Assembly (NCBI GenBank): GCA_003162935.1
Contig: PLUW01000115.1
Location: 1-43,158 of the forward strand
DNA: 43,158 nucleotides
Direction: 5' to 3'
DNA from: Acidobacteriaceae bacterium
GTDB taxonomy: Bacteria; Acidobacteriota; Terriglobia; Terriglobales; Acidobacteriaceae
In this document: positions 30,987-39,501 of the stretch, in pieces
How the letters are laid out: each line of letters starts with the position of its first letter
How positions within the stretch are numbered: the stretch's first letter is position 1
Program-made: the position numbers and the translations under genes
Notes under the pieces: model-generated
What the model was told of the DNA's origin: nothing
Databases searched by the model: none
Seen by the model: the letters and a program-made list of their open reading frames with translations, nothing else

Positions 30987-32513
30987 GTGAAATTCCCGCG
31001 ATGTAGTGGAATCCTGCTGCACTTCACTTCTCTGCCCGGCCGCCTTGGTATCGGCGATCTTGGCCCTTGCGCTTATGAATTTGCGGACTTCCTGTTCGCC
31101 GCCGGACAGAAGTTGTGGCAAGTGTTGCCTTTGAATCCCACCGGATACGGCGATTCCCCGTACCAGTGCTTCTCCGCTTTTGCCGGCAACCCGCTGTTGG
31201 TCAGTCTGGAGCGCTTGCGCGATCAGGGCTTGCTCCAGGCTTCGGACCTGGCTCAGTCACCGCTGTTTCCCGAAGACTTCGTCGACTATGGGCCGGTAAT
31301 TGAATTCAGAATGGCGAGCTTAGGCCGGGCGGCGCAGGTTTTCTTTGCCGACGGCTCCCGGGCGGATCATGCGGCCTTCGACCGCTTTTGCGAAAGCGCC
31401 AGTCCATGGCTCGACGACTACGCGCTCTTCATGGCCTGCAAAGATGAACACCACGGAACGATCTGGACCTCTTGGGACGCACAGATTCGGAATCGAGACG
31501 CGCATGCCCTGAGCGAGTGGTCGAGGAGACTGGTGCCGGAAGTGAACGCTTACAAGTTTTGGCAATTCGAATTCTTCCAGCAGTGGGAGCAGCTCAAGAT
31601 TTATTGCGGGCAACGCGGCATCCGTTTCATGGGCGACGTCCCGATCTATGTTGCGCACGACAGCGCAGATATCTGGGCTCATCCCGATCTGTATTATCTC
31701 GACGATCAGGGCCGCCCGACCGTGGTCTCCGGCGTGCCGCCCGATTATTTCAGCGCCACCGGACAGCTCTGGGGGAATCCGATTTATCGCTGGGACTTGC
31801 TGGCCGCCAGCGGATACAAGTGGTGGATCGAGCGCTTCCGTGCCTCGCTCGCGCTTTTCGATATGGTGCGACTCGATCATTTCCGTGGCTTTGAATCTTA
31901 CTGGGAGGTTCCCGTCGGCGAAACGACCGCTATTCACGGGCGCTGGATCAAAGGGCCGGGAGAAGATTTTCTGTCGGCACTGCAGAACGCGTTTTGCGGA
32001 CTACCGATCGTGGCGGAAAACCTCGGCGTGATTACTCCGCCGGTGGAAAAACTGCGGCAGCAGTTCGGTCTGCCGGGCATGAGTCTTTTACAATTTGCGT
32101 TCGGGACTGATCCGCAGGGTCCATCGTTTCTTCCGCATAATTACAGCCGCGACCTGGTCGCCTACACTGGCGGCCACGACAATGACACAACCGTGGGATG
32201 GTGGTCGAGTTCGGGTGCGGGCGACAGCACGCGCACTCCGGAAGATGTCCGCAAAGAACACGACTTCGCGCGCGCGTATCTCAACTTCCACGACGATTCC
32301 GAGATCAACTGGGTCATGATCCGCGCGGTGCTGGCATCGGTCGCTGATGTTGCGATTGTCCCGTTGCAAGATGTGCTGGGCCTTGGCAGCGCAGCTCGCA
32401 TGAATCTTCCGGGCACGGTCAGCGGAAACTGGAAATGGCGTTATCGTCCGGGCGCATTGAGCGGCGAGTTGGGCGTTAGGCTTCGATCTCTGGTAACCAT
32501 GTACGATCGATAG
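30987..32513 (+). CDS. malQ: 4-alpha-glucanotransferase (amylomaltase, GH77)
   Basis: The protein is 508 aa from GTG 30987. It transfers alpha-1,4-glucan segments between maltodextrins, linking glycogen/maltose metabolism to free glucose. GH77 signatures are present: SGILLHFTSLPGRLGIGDLG at the start, FMGDVPIYVAHDSAD, the nucleophile region VRLDHFRGFESYWEVP, the acid/base region IVAENLGVI, and AYTGGHDNDTTVGWW carrying the third carboxylate. Length and order are typical. The GTG start has only a weak ACGGA before it. It is the first gene of a same-strand block of sugar enzymes. Confidence 0.93.
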   Translation: MKFPRCSGILLHFTSLPGRLGIGDLGPCAYEFADFLFAAGQKLWQVLPLNPTGYGDSPYQCFSAFAGNPLLVSLERLRDQGLLQASDLAQSPLFPEDFVDYGPVIEFRMASLGRAAQVFFADGSRADHAAFDRFCESASPWLDDYALFMACKDEHHGTIWTSWDAQIRNRDAHALSEWSRRLVPEVNAYKFWQFEFFQQWEQLKIYCGQRGIRFMGDVPIYVAHDSADIWAHPDLYYLDDQGRPTVVSGVPPDYFSATGQLWGNPIYRWDLLAASGYKWWIERFRASLALFDMVRLDHFRGFESYWEVPVGETTAIHGRWIKGPGEDFLSALQNAFCGLPIVAENLGVITPPVEKLRQQFGLPGMSLLQFAFGTDPQGPSFLPHNYSRDLVAYTGGHDNDTTVGWWSSSGAGDSTRTPEDVRKEHDFARAYLNFHDDSEINWVMIRAVLASVADVAIVPLQDVLGLGSAARMNLPGTVSGNWKWRYRPGALSGELGVRLRSLVTMYDR

Positions 32514-32586: not shown

Positions 32587-34227
32587 ATGTCACTAAACCG
32601 GGATGTGCTTTGGTACAAGGACGCGATCGTTTATCAAGTCCACGTCCGCACCTTCCACGACAGCAATGGGGATGGCATCGGTGATTTTCAGGGTCTTGAA
32701 GAGAAGCTCGACTACCTTCAGCAACTGGGGATCAACGCGATATGGCTCATGCCATTCTTCCCCTCGCCGCTGCGCGACGATGGCTACGACATCGCGGATT
32801 ACAACGCTGTCCATTCCAGCTATGGAACATTGGAGGATTTCCGCAAGTTCTTGGGGTCTGCCCACGACCGAGGGATCCGGGTCATTATCGAAATGGTGCT
32901 GAATCACACCTCCGATCAGCACCCGTGGTTTCAAGAGTCGCGGAGTTCGCCGGACAATCCACGGCGCGATTGGTATGTCTGGAGCGACACGGATCGCCGG
33001 TACAAGGGCGTCCGCATAATCTTTCTTGATACAGAAACGTCGAACTGGGCTTGGGATCCGATTTCAAAATCCTTCTATTGGCATCGATTCTTCAGTCACC
33101 AGCCCGATCTCAACTACGACAATCCTGCGGTTCGGGAACAGATGTGGAATGTGATGAAGTTCTGGCTGGAGATGGGTGTAGATGGATTCCGTCTCGACGC
33201 GGTGCCGTACCTGGTGGAACGCGAGGGCACAAATTGTGAGAACTTGCCGGAGACCCACGCGGTTCTGAAGGAATTGCGGCGAAAACTCGATGAACAATTC
33301 CCCGGCAGGATGCTTCTGGCGGAGGCCAATCAGTGGCCCGCGGATCTTCGCCCATATTTCGGCGACGGAGATGAGTTCCACATGGCGTTTCATTTTCCGC
33401 TGATGCCCAGGATGTTCATGGGGCTGAAGTTGGAAGACCGCAAGCCCATCACTGAAATCCTGCAGCAGACCCCGGAAATTCCGGCCTTATGCCAGTGGTC
33501 GCTCTTCCTGCGCAACCATGATGAACTGACCCTGGAAATGGTAACGGACTTGGAACGCGACTATATGTACGACTCGTATGCCGAAAGCAAAACGATGCGG
33601 CTGAACCTCGGAATTCGACGACGGCTCGCTCCGTTGCTGGACAACGACCGCCGGCGCATCGAGTTGATGAACGGAATGCTGATGTCGTTACCGGGCACTC
33701 CTATCATTTACTACGGCGATGAAATTGGCATGGGGGATAACATCAATTTAGGGGATCGCAACGGAGTAAGGACGCCGATGCAGTGGGACGGGGGGACGAA
33801 TGGCGGCTTTTCTAGCGCGCCCCTGGAGCGTCTGTATTCTCCCCTTATCCAGGACCCGGTATATGGTTATCCTGCGGTGAACGTCTTGCGGCAAAAAGCG
33901 AGCGAACATTCGCTCCTCAATTGGATGCAACGCATCGTGACGGTTCGCAAATCGACGGGAGTGTTCGGCAGGGGATCGATTGAGTTTCTCTATCCAGCCA
34001 ACCACAGAATCTTGGCCTATGTGCGGCGACTGGGAAACGAGGTGGTCCTAGTGGTCAACAATCTTTCGAGCACCGCGCAAGCTGTCGAACTGGATCTCCG
34101 GCGCTACAAGGGAAATATTCCGATCGAGATGTTTGGCGGGAATATGTTTCCGCGTGTGGGCGACCTGCCGTATCTGCTAACGCTGGGACCCTACCAGTTC
34201 TACTGGTTTCGGCTGCGGCGGGTGTGA
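32587..34227 (+). CDS. treS: Trehalose synthase-like GH13 glucosyltransferase
   Basis: The 546-aa protein begins [20 protein letters not shown], typical of maltose alpha-D-glucosyltransferase/trehalose synthases. GH13 motifs follow: [24 protein letters not shown] (nucleophile Asp), LLAEANQW (acid/base Glu) and [12 protein letters not shown] (transition-state Asp). It ends with the small C-terminal beta-domain and has no fused maltokinase. It would interconvert maltose and trehalose. With malQ just upstream (73-bp gap) and otsAB downstream, both routes to trehalose are encoded together. An alternative is a related GH13 hydrolase or sucrose-type enzyme. Confidence 0.85.
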
Positions 34228-34303: not shown

Positions 34304-35578
34304 ATGAAATTGGCGGAGGAGAGCTATCTTACGGATGATTTTCTTCGCCAACTGGTCAACGTCGGCGAAGTGGACATTCTCGTGGGTTTGCCCACTCACA
34401 ATAACGCCCAAACGATCGGGTCGATCGTTCAGACCATTCAGAGCGGCATCCTGCGCGGGTTTCCGCGAGAGCGAGCGGTGATCATAAATGCCGACGGGGG
34501 GTCGCGTGATGGCACTCGCGAACTGGTCACGGGCGTCTCAATCGATGACGTGCGCCCGGCTTCCAATCTGCACGCTCTGCGGACGCTGCACTCAATCAGC
34601 ACGGAGTATCCGAACAGTCCGTCGAGCGGAGCTGCGTTGCGGACGATTCTGGCTGCCGCCGAACTGCTCCGCGCCAAGGCCTGTGCGGTGCTGTCACCCA
34701 ACTCCGCGAACATCGAACGGGAATGGATCTCCAAGCTTCTAAGCCCCATTTATCGCGACGGGTTTGATCTCGTGACCCCCACCTATCGCAGGCATAAATT
34801 TGAAGGCCTGCTCATCACGAATTTGGTCTACCCGATGACTCGCGCACTCTACGGGTTAAGAATCCGCGAGGCATACTCGCCGGAGTTTGGATTCTCCGGC
34901 CGTCTCGGAAGTCAGTTCCTTGGACAACATGCCTGGAATGACGGAACGGAAGGGGCGGGAGTCGAACTCCGGTTTACCCTGGCTGCGATCACGGGACGAA
35001 ACCTCATCTGCCAGTCCTTTCTCGGAGAAAAGATGCACGTCGAGCGCCATGCCGCCGACCTGGTGCCGGCGCTGCGGGAAACTGTCGGCGCCTTGTTCTC
35101 CGCATTGGAGCCGGACTTTCCCGTCTGGAGCGCGGTGACCCACTCCCAGTCGCTACCTACGACCGGGGCGGACCATGAAGTGATTTTGGAACCGCTGCGG
35201 GTCAATCGGAAACGATTGCGAGAGATGTTCTCGAGTGGAGTTGCCGAATTGGAGTCCGTCTTTCAGTCAATTCTTTCCCTCTCCACACTGGCTGAACTCA
35301 AGCGAATCGCTGCCTTGGGAGAGGAGGAGTTTCATTACCCTCCCGAGTTGTGGGTCAGGACGGTGTACGAGTTTGCCGCCTCGTATCGGAAGTCTGTGAT
35401 CAGCCGGGATCACATTATTCAGGCCTTGGCGCCGCTGTTCCGCGGGAGGGCGTTCACGTTCCTGGTGGAGAACCGCAACGCTTCCGAGGACGAGGTCGAG
35501 AACAACATCGAAGGTTTGTGTCTTGAGTTTGAGCGATTGAAGCCGTATCTGCTGCAGCTGTGGGAATCGAGAGAGTGA
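34304..35578 (+). CDS. Glycosyltransferase, GT2/GT81-like
   Basis: The 424-aa protein has a GT-A nucleotide-sugar binding start, VDILVGLPTHNNAQTIGSIV, followed by INADGGSRDGTRELV. The C-terminal third is helical (VENNIEGLCLEFERLKPYL). The general look is of the GT81 group, which makes glucosyl- or mannosylglycerate-type compatible solutes. I cannot see a diagnostic residue for a particular acceptor, so only glycosyltransferase is certain. It is the third gene of the carbohydrate block and is followed after 7 bp by a membrane protein. Together with trehalose genes this points to osmolyte production. Confidence 0.75.
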   Translation: MKLAEESYLTDDFLRQLVNVGEVDILVGLPTHNNAQTIGSIVQTIQSGILRGFPRERAVIINADGGSRDGTRELVTGVSIDDVRPASNLHALRTLHSISTEYPNSPSSGAALRTILAAAELLRAKACAVLSPNSANIEREWISKLLSPIYRDGFDLVTPTYRRHKFEGLLITNLVYPMTRALYGLRIREAYSPEFGFSGRLGSQFLGQHAWNDGTEGAGVELRFTLAAITGRNLICQSFLGEKMHVERHAADLVPALRETVGALFSALEPDFPVWSAVTHSQSLPTTGADHEVILEPLRVNRKRLREMFSSGVAELESVFQSILSLSTLAELKRIAALGEEEFHYPPELWVRTVYEFAASYRKSVISRDHIIQALAPLFRGRAFTFLVENRNASEDEVENNIEGLCLEFERLKPYLLQLWESRE

Positions 35579-35585
35579 GGCAACT

Positions 35586-36299
35586 ATGCGGGAAATGATT
35601 ATCAGCGAACTAAGTCAGGCGCTGCACGCGATGGCCAGAGGTTTCGCCCACTTCCTTCCTCGTCTCATCGTGATGCTGATCGTTGCCATTGTAGGCTGGG
35701 TGGTCGCGTTCGTGGCAAAAGTGGTTCTGCGCAGCATTCTGAGGCTGGTCAAGTTCGACAAGCTTTCAGAAAATGCTGGCGCCTCTCAATTGCTCGCCAA
35801 GGCCGCGCTGCCTTCAGCCACGGAAATGCTGAGCCGGTTCGTCTTCTGGGTGGCGTGGCTCGGCTTCATTCTGCTGGGTGTGAGCGTGCTCGGGATACTG
35901 GGCCTGCAAGAGCAAGTCGCAAGATTTTTTCTTTTCTTGCCGCGTCTATTCGTAGCCCTGTTCATCATGTTTTTCGGACTGCTGGCAGCTAGTTTCCTTT
36001 CTCGCGCTGCCCTCTTGGCCGCGGTGAACGCGAACATGCCTTCACCCCGGGTTTTGAGTCTCGCGGTCCGCAGCATCATCATTGTTTTCGTATTGTCGAT
36101 CGTGTTTGAAGAACTGGGTCTGGCGGAACAGACCATGCTGGTTGCCTTCGGAATTGCCTTCGGGGCCCTGATGCTCGGCTTGGCAATCGCGTTCGGCATG
36201 GGGGGCAGAGACTTGGCCAAGCGTTTTCTGGAGAAGAAGATTGTTCGCGGGAAGAAGAAAGAGGAAGAGGAGAACGAAGACGAACCGTCGCCGCTCTAG
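35586..36299 (+). CDS. Membrane protein with conserved TM-helix repeats (MscS-related)
   Basis: The 237-aa protein has about five hydrophobic helices. The first pair (HFLPRLIVMLIVAIVGWVVAFV and the linker SILRLVKFDKLSEN) matches the conserved TM-helix repeat seen in small MscS-like proteins. FLPRLFVALFIMFFGLLAASFL begins a second, similar repeat. A glycine-rich helix (LGLAIAFGMGGRDLAKRFLE) resembles the pore helix region. The beta-domain of full MscS channels is absent and the tail is highly charged (KKKEEEENEDE). A role in osmotic adaptation alongside trehalose synthesis is plausible. Its start has GAGTGAGG upstream. Confidence 0.75.
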   Translation: MREMIISELSQALHAMARGFAHFLPRLIVMLIVAIVGWVVAFVAKVVLRSILRLVKFDKLSENAGASQLLAKAALPSATEMLSRFVFWVAWLGFILLGVSVLGILGLQEQVARFFLFLPRLFVALFIMFFGLLAASFLSRAALLAAVNANMPSPRVLSLAVRSIIIVFVLSIVFEELGLAEQTMLVAFGIAFGALMLGLAIAFGMGGRDLAKRFLEKKIVRGKKKEEEENEDEPSPL

Positions 36300-36374
36300 C
36301 GCCGGAAGTGTCAGCTCGCCACCCGTTGCGGTAGGATGAAATCTCCTTCCTTCTCCATTGTGGGGGCTAACGCC

Positions 36375-38663
36375 ATGCGACTGCTCAGCATACGGCTCAT
36401 TGTTTCCCTCATCGTGTGTATCACGCTGGTCTCGCTTTCGTCCTCGTATTACGAGGTACTGGGCGAGAAGCGTGGCCTGCGCCAAGACTTGGAGCGACGC
36501 GCCGAAGTATTGGGCGAAAGCCTCGCGGGGAATGTGGAGCGCGGCCTGGAGAAAGATTCGGCGCAGGATTTGCAGAGCATCGTACAGCATTTTGGGAACC
36601 GGGAGCATCTCTCAGGATTGGCTATCTACGGTCGGCAGGGTGACTTGCTGGCTGTTACACAGGAGTTGGCATCCACGCTGACTACCGTTCCCGCCGTAAT
36701 GTCTGAAGCCTTGCGTGAGAACCGTGGAGTGGGAGCCTTTCAACGGGTGGGCGATGCCTCGTTGCATATTTACGCCCTGCCTCTTCACCAGCAAGACGAG
36801 GTCATCGGCGGCCTCGTGATTGTTCATGATGCCAGCTATATTCGGGCGGAGAGCCTTCGCATTTGGCGGGAAGCATTCCGGCGAGCGCTCATCCATGTAT
36901 TTCTGATCGTGCTGATCACGCTATTGATTGTGCGCTGGAGTATTTCCGCACCCATCGCACGTACGGCGCAGTGGATGCGAGCTTTGCGGACGGGGCGAGC
37001 CGCTTCACCCCGGCACGGCGCCGATCTGGATCTGTTTCGTCCCCTGGTGCGGGAGGTCGCCGCCTTCGCTGAAAGCCTTACCCAAGCGCGGTCGGCGGCC
37101 GAGACGGAAGCGCGCCTGCGCGACACCGGTGAATCGCAGTGGACGGCCGACCGGCTAGCCGTGCACGTGCGCGCGCGACTGGATGGTGGACGTCTTTTTG
37201 TCGTGTCGAATCGCGAGCCTTACATGCACATGCGGCGCGGCCAATCCGTGGAAGTGATGGTGCCGCCCAGCGGGGTGGTCACGGCGATCGAGCCTGTGCT
37301 GCGAGCCTGTGACGGAACCTGGATCGCCCATGGCAGTGGCGATGGCGACCTCGAAACCGTAGATGAGCACGACCGGCTGCGGGTGCCTCCGGAAGATCCC
37401 CACTATACCTTGCGCCGGGTCTGGCTCAACGAAGCGGAGGAAGAAGGCTATTACTACGGATTTGCCAACGAGGGCATCTGGCCTCTATGTCATATCGCAC
37501 ACACCCGCCCGATTTTTCGCGCAGAGGACTGGAAGTACTATCAGACCGTCAACCAAAAATTCGCCGATGCGCTGCTCGAAGAGATGAAGGACGTGGAGAA
37601 GCCCATTGTGCTAGTGCAGGATTACCACTTCGCGTTGTTGCCCCGTCTGATTAAAGAAAAAAGACCGGAGGCCAGGGTGGCTATCTTCTGGCACATTCCG
37701 TGGCCCAACCCGGACGCATTTGACATCTCACCGTGGCGGCGCGAGGTTGTAGATGGTCTGCTCGGCGCCGATCTAATTGGGTTTCACATCCAGTCGCACT
37801 GCAATAATTTCTTGCATACAGTCGATCGGGTAGTGGAATCACGCGTCGATTGGGAGCACTTTTCGGTAAGACGTCTGGATCATCTCACCCGGGTGCGACC
37901 TTTCCCCATCAGTGTGGACTTTACAGATGTGCAAGAACAGGAGGCGACGCTGGATTCCTACACTGAACGTTCCACTTTGCTCAAGGCCCTGGGGGTTGAG
38001 GCTACCTTCATGGGGGTGGGCGTAGACCGGGTCGATTACACCAAGGGCATCCTGGAGCGTTTTCTGGCCATTGAGCTTTTTCTGGAGAAGCATCCCTCCT
38101 ATCAGGGTAAGTTTACGTTCGTGCAGATTGGCGCTCCAAGCCGCAGCCACCTCAAACGCTATCACGATCTGATGCTGGAGGTGGAAGCGGAAGCCACCCG
38201 CATCAACGGGCGGTTCCAGGCGGCGAAATGGAAGCCCATCGTCTTTCTGAACCGGCAGCATAATCACGAGGAGATTCAAAGGTACTACCGCGCCGCCGAT
38301 GTGTGCCTGGTTACGTCATTACACGATGGCATGAATCTGGTGGCGAAGGAATTCGTGGCAGCCCGGCACGACGAAAGGGGTGTTCTAGTCCTGAGTTGCT
38401 TTACCGGCGCCGTCCACGAGTTGCATGACGCCTTGCAGATCAATCCCTACGACGTCGATCAGACGGCTGAGGCGATTCGCACCGCTCTGGAGATGGAGCC
38501 GGAGGAAAAAGAATCGCGCATGAGGCGCATGCGGAAGACTGTCAAGGAACACAACGTTTATCGCTGGGCAGGAACCCTCATCGCGGAACTCTGCGAGCTG
38601 CGAATGGATGCATCGGACGAAGGCAAAGAGAAACTCCGAGCGAGTGCCGCTGGCTGGGAATGA
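36375..38663 (+). CDS. otsA: Membrane sensor-HAMP-like N-terminus fused to trehalose-6-phosphate synthase
   Basis: The protein is 762 aa from ATG 36375; ATG 36336 would add 13 residues. Roughly residues 1-22 form a TM helix ([17 protein letters not shown]). A presumably extracytoplasmic domain spans ~23-165, then a second TM helix ([16 protein letters not shown]) and a HAMP-like coil ([17 protein letters not shown]). The remainder, from about [13 protein letters not shown], is a GT20 trehalose-phosphate synthase with [11 protein letters not shown]-like [55 protein letters not shown] and the synthase core. It makes trehalose-6-phosphate from UDP- or ADP-glucose and glucose-6-phosphate. A membrane sensory front end on OtsA suggests direct control by an external or membrane signal. 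Confidence 0.88.
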
Positions 38664-38670
38664 GGAACAT

Positions 38671-39501
38671 GTGGTTGTACCCACGGTCCATTCAAGCATA
38701 GTCGAGCAGTTCATGAACGCGGTGGCACAGTCGCCGGCTTCGGCGCTTCTGCTTGACTATGACGGTACTCTCGCGCCATTTTGCCTCAATCGCCAGCAGG
38801 CTCTGCCCTATCCGGGAGTGACCGCGCTCCTACAGGAAATCATCGCCAATGGCCGCACGCGTGTTGTCATCATCACAGGTCGAAACGCCCATGAGATCCT
38901 CCCGCTGCTTGTGGTTCACCCCCGTCCTGAGATCTGGGGATGCCATGGGTTGGAGCGGTTGAGAAAGGATGGAACCTGCGAGACACCCCGCATCGAAGAG
39001 CCTGTGCTACACGCCCTGGCTGATGCAGATCAGTGGTTACGGTATCAGGGGCTGCACAACCGGGCCGAATTCAAAACCGGTTCCGTCGCTCTCCATTGGC
39101 GTGGGCTGGACGAAGCGACGGCGGCGGAAATTCGCGGCCAGGTTCTGGTGGGCTGGCTCCCCATCGCGCAAACTACGCCAATGGAACTGCTGGAGTTCGA
39201 TGGCGGTATTGAAATGCGCATGCCGGCCCGTGACAAGGGGGATGCGGTCCGCATCCTTCTGGATGAAATCGGCCCGGGGGTTCCCGTCGCCTACCTGGGG
39301 GATGACTTGACCGACGAGCGGGCTTTCCTCTCTCTTGGCACCCTAGGCCTAAGCATCCTGGTACGCCCCGCATGGCGCGAAACCGCAGCTGCCCTGTGGA
39401 TCAGGCCGCCAGAAGAATTGCGGGAGTTTCTGACACTGTGGCTACAAGCCTGTCGTGGGGGGCCGCTTCGCGCAAGGACAGAGTCTTCTGGTCCTAAATG
39501 A
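38671..39501 (+). CDS. otsB: Trehalose-6-phosphate phosphatase
   Basis: The product is 276 aa if started at GTG 38671, which has GAGGA just upstream and follows the otsA stop by 7 bp; an ATG at 38608 would overlap otsA by 56 bp. HAD-family motifs are clear: LLLDYDGTLAPF (nucleophile and acid Asp), VIITGRNAHEI, and the metal-binding AYLGDDLTDERAFLSL. ELLEFDGGIEMRMP and KGDAVRILLDEI match the cap/phosphatase transition of OtsB. It removes phosphate from trehalose-6-phosphate made by the preceding fusion enzyme. It is the last gene of the block, before repeat copy 3. Confidence 0.92.
   Translation: MVVPTVHSSIVEQFMNAVAQSPASALLLDYDGTLAPFCLNRQQALPYPGVTALLQEIIANGRTRVVIITGRNAHEILPLLVVHPRPEIWGCHGLERLRKDGTCETPRIEEPVLHALADADQWLRYQGLHNRAEFKTGSVALHWRGLDEATAAEIRGQVLVGWLPIAQTTPMELLEFDGGIEMRMPARDKGDAVRILLDEIGPGVPVAYLGDDLTDERAFLSLGTLGLSILVRPAWRETAAALWIRPPEELREFLTLWLQACRGGPLRARTESSGPK

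Follow-up and report, generated by a model that had tools for sequence, protein, structure and literature searches.

A Cache-HAMP sensor module joined in one reading frame to a predicted trehalose-6-phosphate synthase in an acidobacterium: a probable membrane receptor with a metabolic enzyme as output

Bacteria are generally regarded as regulating their trehalose synthesis through transcription or through metabolites. The window analysed here, the whole stretch of 43,158 nucleotides of DNA from a soil-dwelling member of the Acidobacteriaceae, contains a gene that raises the question of whether trehalose-6-phosphate synthase (OtsA) may also be governed directly by a receptor at the cytoplasmic membrane. 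The original prediction described OtsA behind a two-TM sensor starting at 36375. All genes and features given below with coordinates of the window lie on the + strand. The open reading frame (36336-38663, 775 aa) runs without internal stop or frameshift, and translation probably starts at 36375 rather than at the ORF opening at 36336, because Met14 is nearly invariant in 22 homologues and is preceded by a G-rich stretch. From Met14 the whole fusion, an sCache-HAMP-GT20 trehalose-6-phosphate synthase, comprises 762 aa in a single open frame (36375..38663), in the order TM1-Cache-TM2-HAMP-coil-GT20. Both the start and the layout therefore agree with the prediction, and a frameshift or start artefact parting the sensor from the GT20 part is ruled out by the one open frame and by collinear orthologues. 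The arrangement is collinear in 50 aligned homologues (about 41-93% identical) across phyla, and lies far beyond chance.

The AlphaFold2 model calculated from a 22-sequence alignment (mean pLDDT 82.8) showed a long helix (residues 9-72) that includes TM1 and its extension, followed by a mixed alpha/beta domain at about 76-165, a continuous helix (167-218) formed by TM2 and HAMP helix 1, a loop (219-233), a second helix (234-266) and a short helix (271-282) preceding the GT20 enzyme. The pLDDT was low across the HAMP connector and the coil. The two membrane helices correspond to hydrophobic stretches at residues of about 15-37 (TM1, 36378..36446) and 184-204 (TM2, 36885..36947), and enclose an extracytoplasmic region of residues of about 38-183 (36447..36884).

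Small molecules are the usual ligands of Cache domains. The extracytoplasmic region is assigned as one single Cache (PDC/PAS-like) domain with a WalK-like fold, on the evidence of the structural model together with profile and Pfam matches. A separate model of residues 12-262, also compared with Foldseek, found its best match in the WalK receptor domain 4ywz (VIA-align Z 17.1, 135 aligned residues, rmsd 2.3), with sporulation kinase D, CitA (2j80, Z 14.5) and DcuS as the next matches, and the family profile searched against solved structures retrieved the WalK histidine kinase receptor domain 5is1 (E 3.1e-5). Pfam Cache models stayed below cut-off on the window protein (sCache_3_2 0.12, sCache_4 0.13); among 37 relatives, sCache_3_2 reached 0.1 or better in 15 (best 3.5e-7), and dCache_3 matched family members with a best value of 2.5e-7. 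A weak Pfam match named SMP_2, haemolysin, was dropped as a separate identity, SMP_2 being a Cache-family model in PMC4822843, where Cache domains are called the largest class of extracellular sensors. This domain is the least conserved part of the fusion (mean column conservation 0.54 vs 0.77 for GT20), and column conservation in the aligned homologues revealed no obvious invariant set of ligand-binding residues in it.

The stretch that follows TM2 had been called a HAMP-like linker. A helix-connector-helix arrangement is present in the model (helix to 218, loop 219-233, helix 234-266, with low pLDDT at the connector), and Pfam PF00672 gave no match on the window protein alone at E up to 10, while weakly matching 7 of 37 relatives (best 4.8e-4). 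When the stretch was cut from the family alignment and compared by hhalign with six HAMPs of other proteins of the same genome, it matched over 51 columns with a probability of 96.9, a score of 47.0 and a P of 1.8e-10. Chance likeness is ruled out by the controls, since the best of 100 column shuffles scored 16.6 and reversing the alignment gave 9.0. The resemblance to accepted HAMPs spans the whole domain and thus bears out the predicted linker although the single-sequence Pfam search misses it, and an absence of HAMP similarity in profile searches, which would have spoken against it, does not apply (47 vs 16.6). Residues 205-256 (36948..37103) are accordingly read from these profiles as a divergent HAMP domain, in which P206, W213, G220, E240 and L248 are nearly invariant; the helix-1 proline (P206), the glycine after it (G220) and the helix-2 glutamate (E240) are kept HAMP features. 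The DExG motif is retained in Omnitrophota-type members (DELGKLANEV), and Acidobacteriota have D-L-F-x-P instead. A branch from the order of Noviherbaspirillum and from Gemmatimonadota (L061, L056, L099-L104) is without the HAMP proline and carries an LSWRGW-type sequence in place of GPIAR; the HAMP of this branch appears further reduced or replaced.

A short signalling-type coil (residues 257-268, 37104..37139) connects HAMP helix 2 to the enzyme. In 48 of the 50 homologues, 80-82 residues separate TM2 and the enzyme, the exceptions being the Noviherbaspirillum (74) and Gemmatimonadaceae (71) proteins (L061, L056), with linkers 7-10 residues shorter, while the Cache domain varies between 141 and 163 aa. 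Such a nearly constant length despite a variable Cache domain is what would be expected for mechanical coupling: a fixed helical spacing should be needed where rotation or tilt is transmitted, and a tether would need none.

The GT20 enzyme is complete, from W269 to the end (37140..38660). PF00982 covers residues 286-752 and profile positions 2-471 of 473 (E 2.9e-123), and the best PDB matches are trehalose-6-phosphate synthases. Alignment to 5jij and the invariant columns located the SNR motif, the Y and W of the acceptor site and [25 protein letters not shown], and the catalytic motifs are kept in the fusion enzyme ([27 protein letters not shown]); the roles of the catalytic and substrate-binding residues are presumed to be those of E. 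coli OtsA. The protein scored 435 bits against TIGR02400, the OtsA equivalog, whose cut-off of 564.85 was not reached, and 323 against the NCBIfam equivalog for glucosylglycerol-phosphate synthase, whose cut-off of 569 was not reached either. The enzyme is thus OtsA-like, lies outside the TIGR02400 equivalog and is predicted to be a trehalose-6-phosphate synthase; the identity as glucosylglycerol-phosphate synthase is disfavoured by its lower score. No other GT20 gene was found in the genome, so that all OtsA flux would pass through the fusion enzyme; the genome is 83% complete, and a second OtsA could therefore be missing.

The origin of the sensor part was indicated by searching the full-length family profile against 297 Acidobacteriota genomes, which also found proteins matching only about positions 2-263. 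Ten of these were retrieved, and all nine that were scanned proved to be histidine kinases, with Pfam matches to HAMP, HisKA and HATPase that exceed the cut-offs. The fusion N-terminus is collinear with eight of these kinases over 249 columns (profile-profile probability 99.85, E 1e-30), in line with the kinase-like sensor layout of the original prediction. MWxxxxL opens several stand-alone GT20 relatives at the position matching W269, and in all 14 fused proteins inspected the VVSNREP motif starts 20 residues after the W269 equivalent. Because the N-terminus is collinear with kinases and stand-alone enzymes start at the W269 equivalent, the fusion is a complete OtsA fitted with a sensor module of the kinase type. 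The invariant W269 and L274 had been considered a coupling invention, an idea that was withdrawn since stand-alone enzymes open with the same helix. Two changes of the fused label are required on the GT20 tree, which is compatible with a single origin followed by loss as well as with two separate origins.

The fusion is widely distributed, from Acidobacteriota to several other phyla. A long match was present in 20 of 23 other genomes of the same genus, and full-length matches in about 30 of the 297 sampled Acidobacteriota genomes. In the order to which Noviherbaspirillum belongs, 16 of 200 genomes carried the fusion. Among the named records are MAGs assigned to Ignavibacteria, Omnitrophota, Auribacterota, Nitrospirae, Verrucomicrobia, Elusimicrobia, Methylomirabilota, Bacteroidetes and Gemmatimonadaceae, some assignments of short MAG contigs being possible binning errors. 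One Noviherbaspirillum genome holds two copies of the fused enzyme (G352:C34:46719-48911 and 296942-299140). In one Acidobacteriota genome (G132, L089:1057-3194) sensor and GT20 lie in two overlapping frames; the gene is either naturally split or carries a frameshift from assembly.

The surrounding genes include, upstream, malQ (4-alpha-glucanotransferase, 30987..32513, PF02446 E 1e-176) and treS (maltose alpha-D-glucosyltransferase, or trehalose synthase, 32587..34227, TIGR02456 E 9.7e-277) and, following the fusion gene, otsB (trehalose-6-phosphate phosphatase, 38608..39501, TIGR00685 74.6 bits vs a cut-off of 68.05), whose true start may lie further in and which adjoins the fusion gene in most loci. 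Between treS and the next membrane protein gene lies a glycosyltransferase gene (34304..35578) weakly resembling glucosyl-3-phosphoglycerate synthase (NF010496 1.5e-4, PF00535 7.9e-4, both below cut-offs); the encoded enzyme may make a second compatible solute. The membrane protein (35586..36299) carries conserved mechanosensitive-channel TM helices (PF05552 3.6e-11, two stretches), and the domain search found no MscS beta domain in it. Close relatives and two Ignavibacteria (the latter at about 32% identity) also have a channel-like gene upstream of the fusion; it was not found in most other phyla when fusion loci were compared. In two close relatives (L041:4257, L047:4208) a reversed malQ homologue (67% identity) separates the fusion gene from the channel-like gene. 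HisKA, HATPase and receiver domains were found neither in the fusion protein nor in the scanned neighbour genes, which fits the earlier proposal that no phosphorelay takes part.

Taken together, the fusion is best read, with a rough probability of 0.65, as a membrane receptor with a metabolic enzyme as its output, in which one phosphorelay-free protein would both sense and synthesize. The Cache domain outside the cytoplasmic membrane would bind a small ligand or respond to an envelope condition, and the resulting change would be passed on by TM2 to the four-helix bundle that the HAMPs of a putative dimer would form. From there the signal would continue down the fixed-length coil into the first helix and strand of GT20, beside the substrate-closing loop, so that formation of trehalose-6-phosphate could be raised or lowered; the neighbouring OtsB would then dephosphorylate this product to trehalose. 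This receptor-enzyme reading is supported by the WalK-like Cache domain, the HAMP recognised by profile, the collinearity with kinases and the constant linker, and further by the kept catalytic motifs, by a fusion that recurs across phyla mostly beside otsB and by its being the sole GT20 gene found. Counted against it are the divergent HAMP, the Cache domain as the least conserved part, the low pLDDT at the connector and coil, and the 83% completeness of the genome. Signal-controlled synthesis at the membrane, as proposed in the original prediction, is an inference that architecture and conservation support well.

The same divergence of the HAMP and weak conservation of the extracytoplasmic domain would also suit a kinase-derived membrane anchor and dimerisation device, keeping trehalose synthesis at the membrane and close to the channel-like protein or to other partners, without signal control; the neighbouring membrane protein with mechanosensitive-channel helices points the same way. 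However, an anchor would have no use for a folded Cache domain some 145 residues long or for an almost constant linker length across phyla, and we consider this explanation unlikely. That neighbour, an osmolyte as product and the failure to recognise a conserved ligand pocket could also suggest that the TM helices and HAMP sense the state of the membrane (tension, bilayer packing, crowding), as in some osmosensing kinases, with the Cache domain as a spacer or tuner. Cache domains are mostly seen as ligand binders (general knowledge; PMC4822843) and the channel-like neighbour was not found in most other phyla, so sensing of this kind seems improbable. As to the product, the two NCBIfam cut-offs that were missed would allow another phosphorylated glucoside, e.g. 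glucosylglycerol phosphate, in place of trehalose-6-phosphate, but the higher OtsA score, the best solved relatives and the above-cut-off trehalose-6-phosphate phosphatase next door make this very improbable.

If the receptor-enzyme reading is correct, the committed trehalose enzyme, which appears wired straight to an outside sensor, would take HAMP signalling into primary osmolyte metabolism, outside the range of kinases, chemoreceptors and second-messenger enzymes. Its simple in vitro read-out (UDP release) would make HAMP coupling directly testable, and with it what Acidobacteriota sense on drying out. The odds are somewhat better than even that the fusion represents a widespread undescribed class of receptor enzymes in many phyla, with the biosynthetic enzyme of a bulk osmolyte gated directly by a Cache-HAMP module that senses outside the cell, so that a single protein would act as a switch for osmoadaptation with neither phosphorelay nor transcription. 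No description of a receptor-fused OtsA was found in the open-licence papers searched, an absence that is weak evidence. Cache proteins are described with known signal-transduction outputs, the SMP_2 family excepted (PMC4822843); the models in that work were built from sequences with such outputs, and an OtsA fusion could therefore have been missed.

Comparison with known systems places the novelty in the metabolic output, receptor enzymes themselves being already known. The solved OtsA proteins (E. coli 1gz5, M. thermoresistibile 5jij) share the whole GT20 domain with its catalytic motifs, and otsB as the adjoining gene is a further likeness; they are devoid of a receptor module, of which the fusion carries about 255 residues, and the fusion does not reach the score required for the OtsA equivalog. 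Cache-HAMP histidine kinases (WalK type, and the Acidobacteriota kinases L079-L088) have in common the TM1-Cache-TM2-HAMP order and the same Cache fold, whereas the fusion has a metabolic glycosyltransferase instead of HisKA and HATPase and a more divergent HAMP. Diguanylate and adenylate cyclases that are bound to the membrane and carry Cache domains (PMC4822843) likewise have an outside sensor wired directly to a catalytic domain in the cytoplasm; they produce second messengers, in contrast to the precursor of a bulk osmolyte made here. Another acidobacterium, Granulicella sp. WH15, has more of its OtsA and TreS proteins when sugar is high (PMC7074687). The msc-gt-tpsp operon of Thermoproteus tenax (PMC3634074) also clusters a trehalose synthase gene with a glycosyltransferase and an MscS-TM-like protein, and there a separate GT4 protein binds and activates the TPS-TPP fusion, for which regulated trehalose synthesis was proposed. 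No receptor module is described for that operon, and the window has another type of glycosyltransferase and separate OtsA and OtsB, so that the likeness is one of gene content, not of mechanism.
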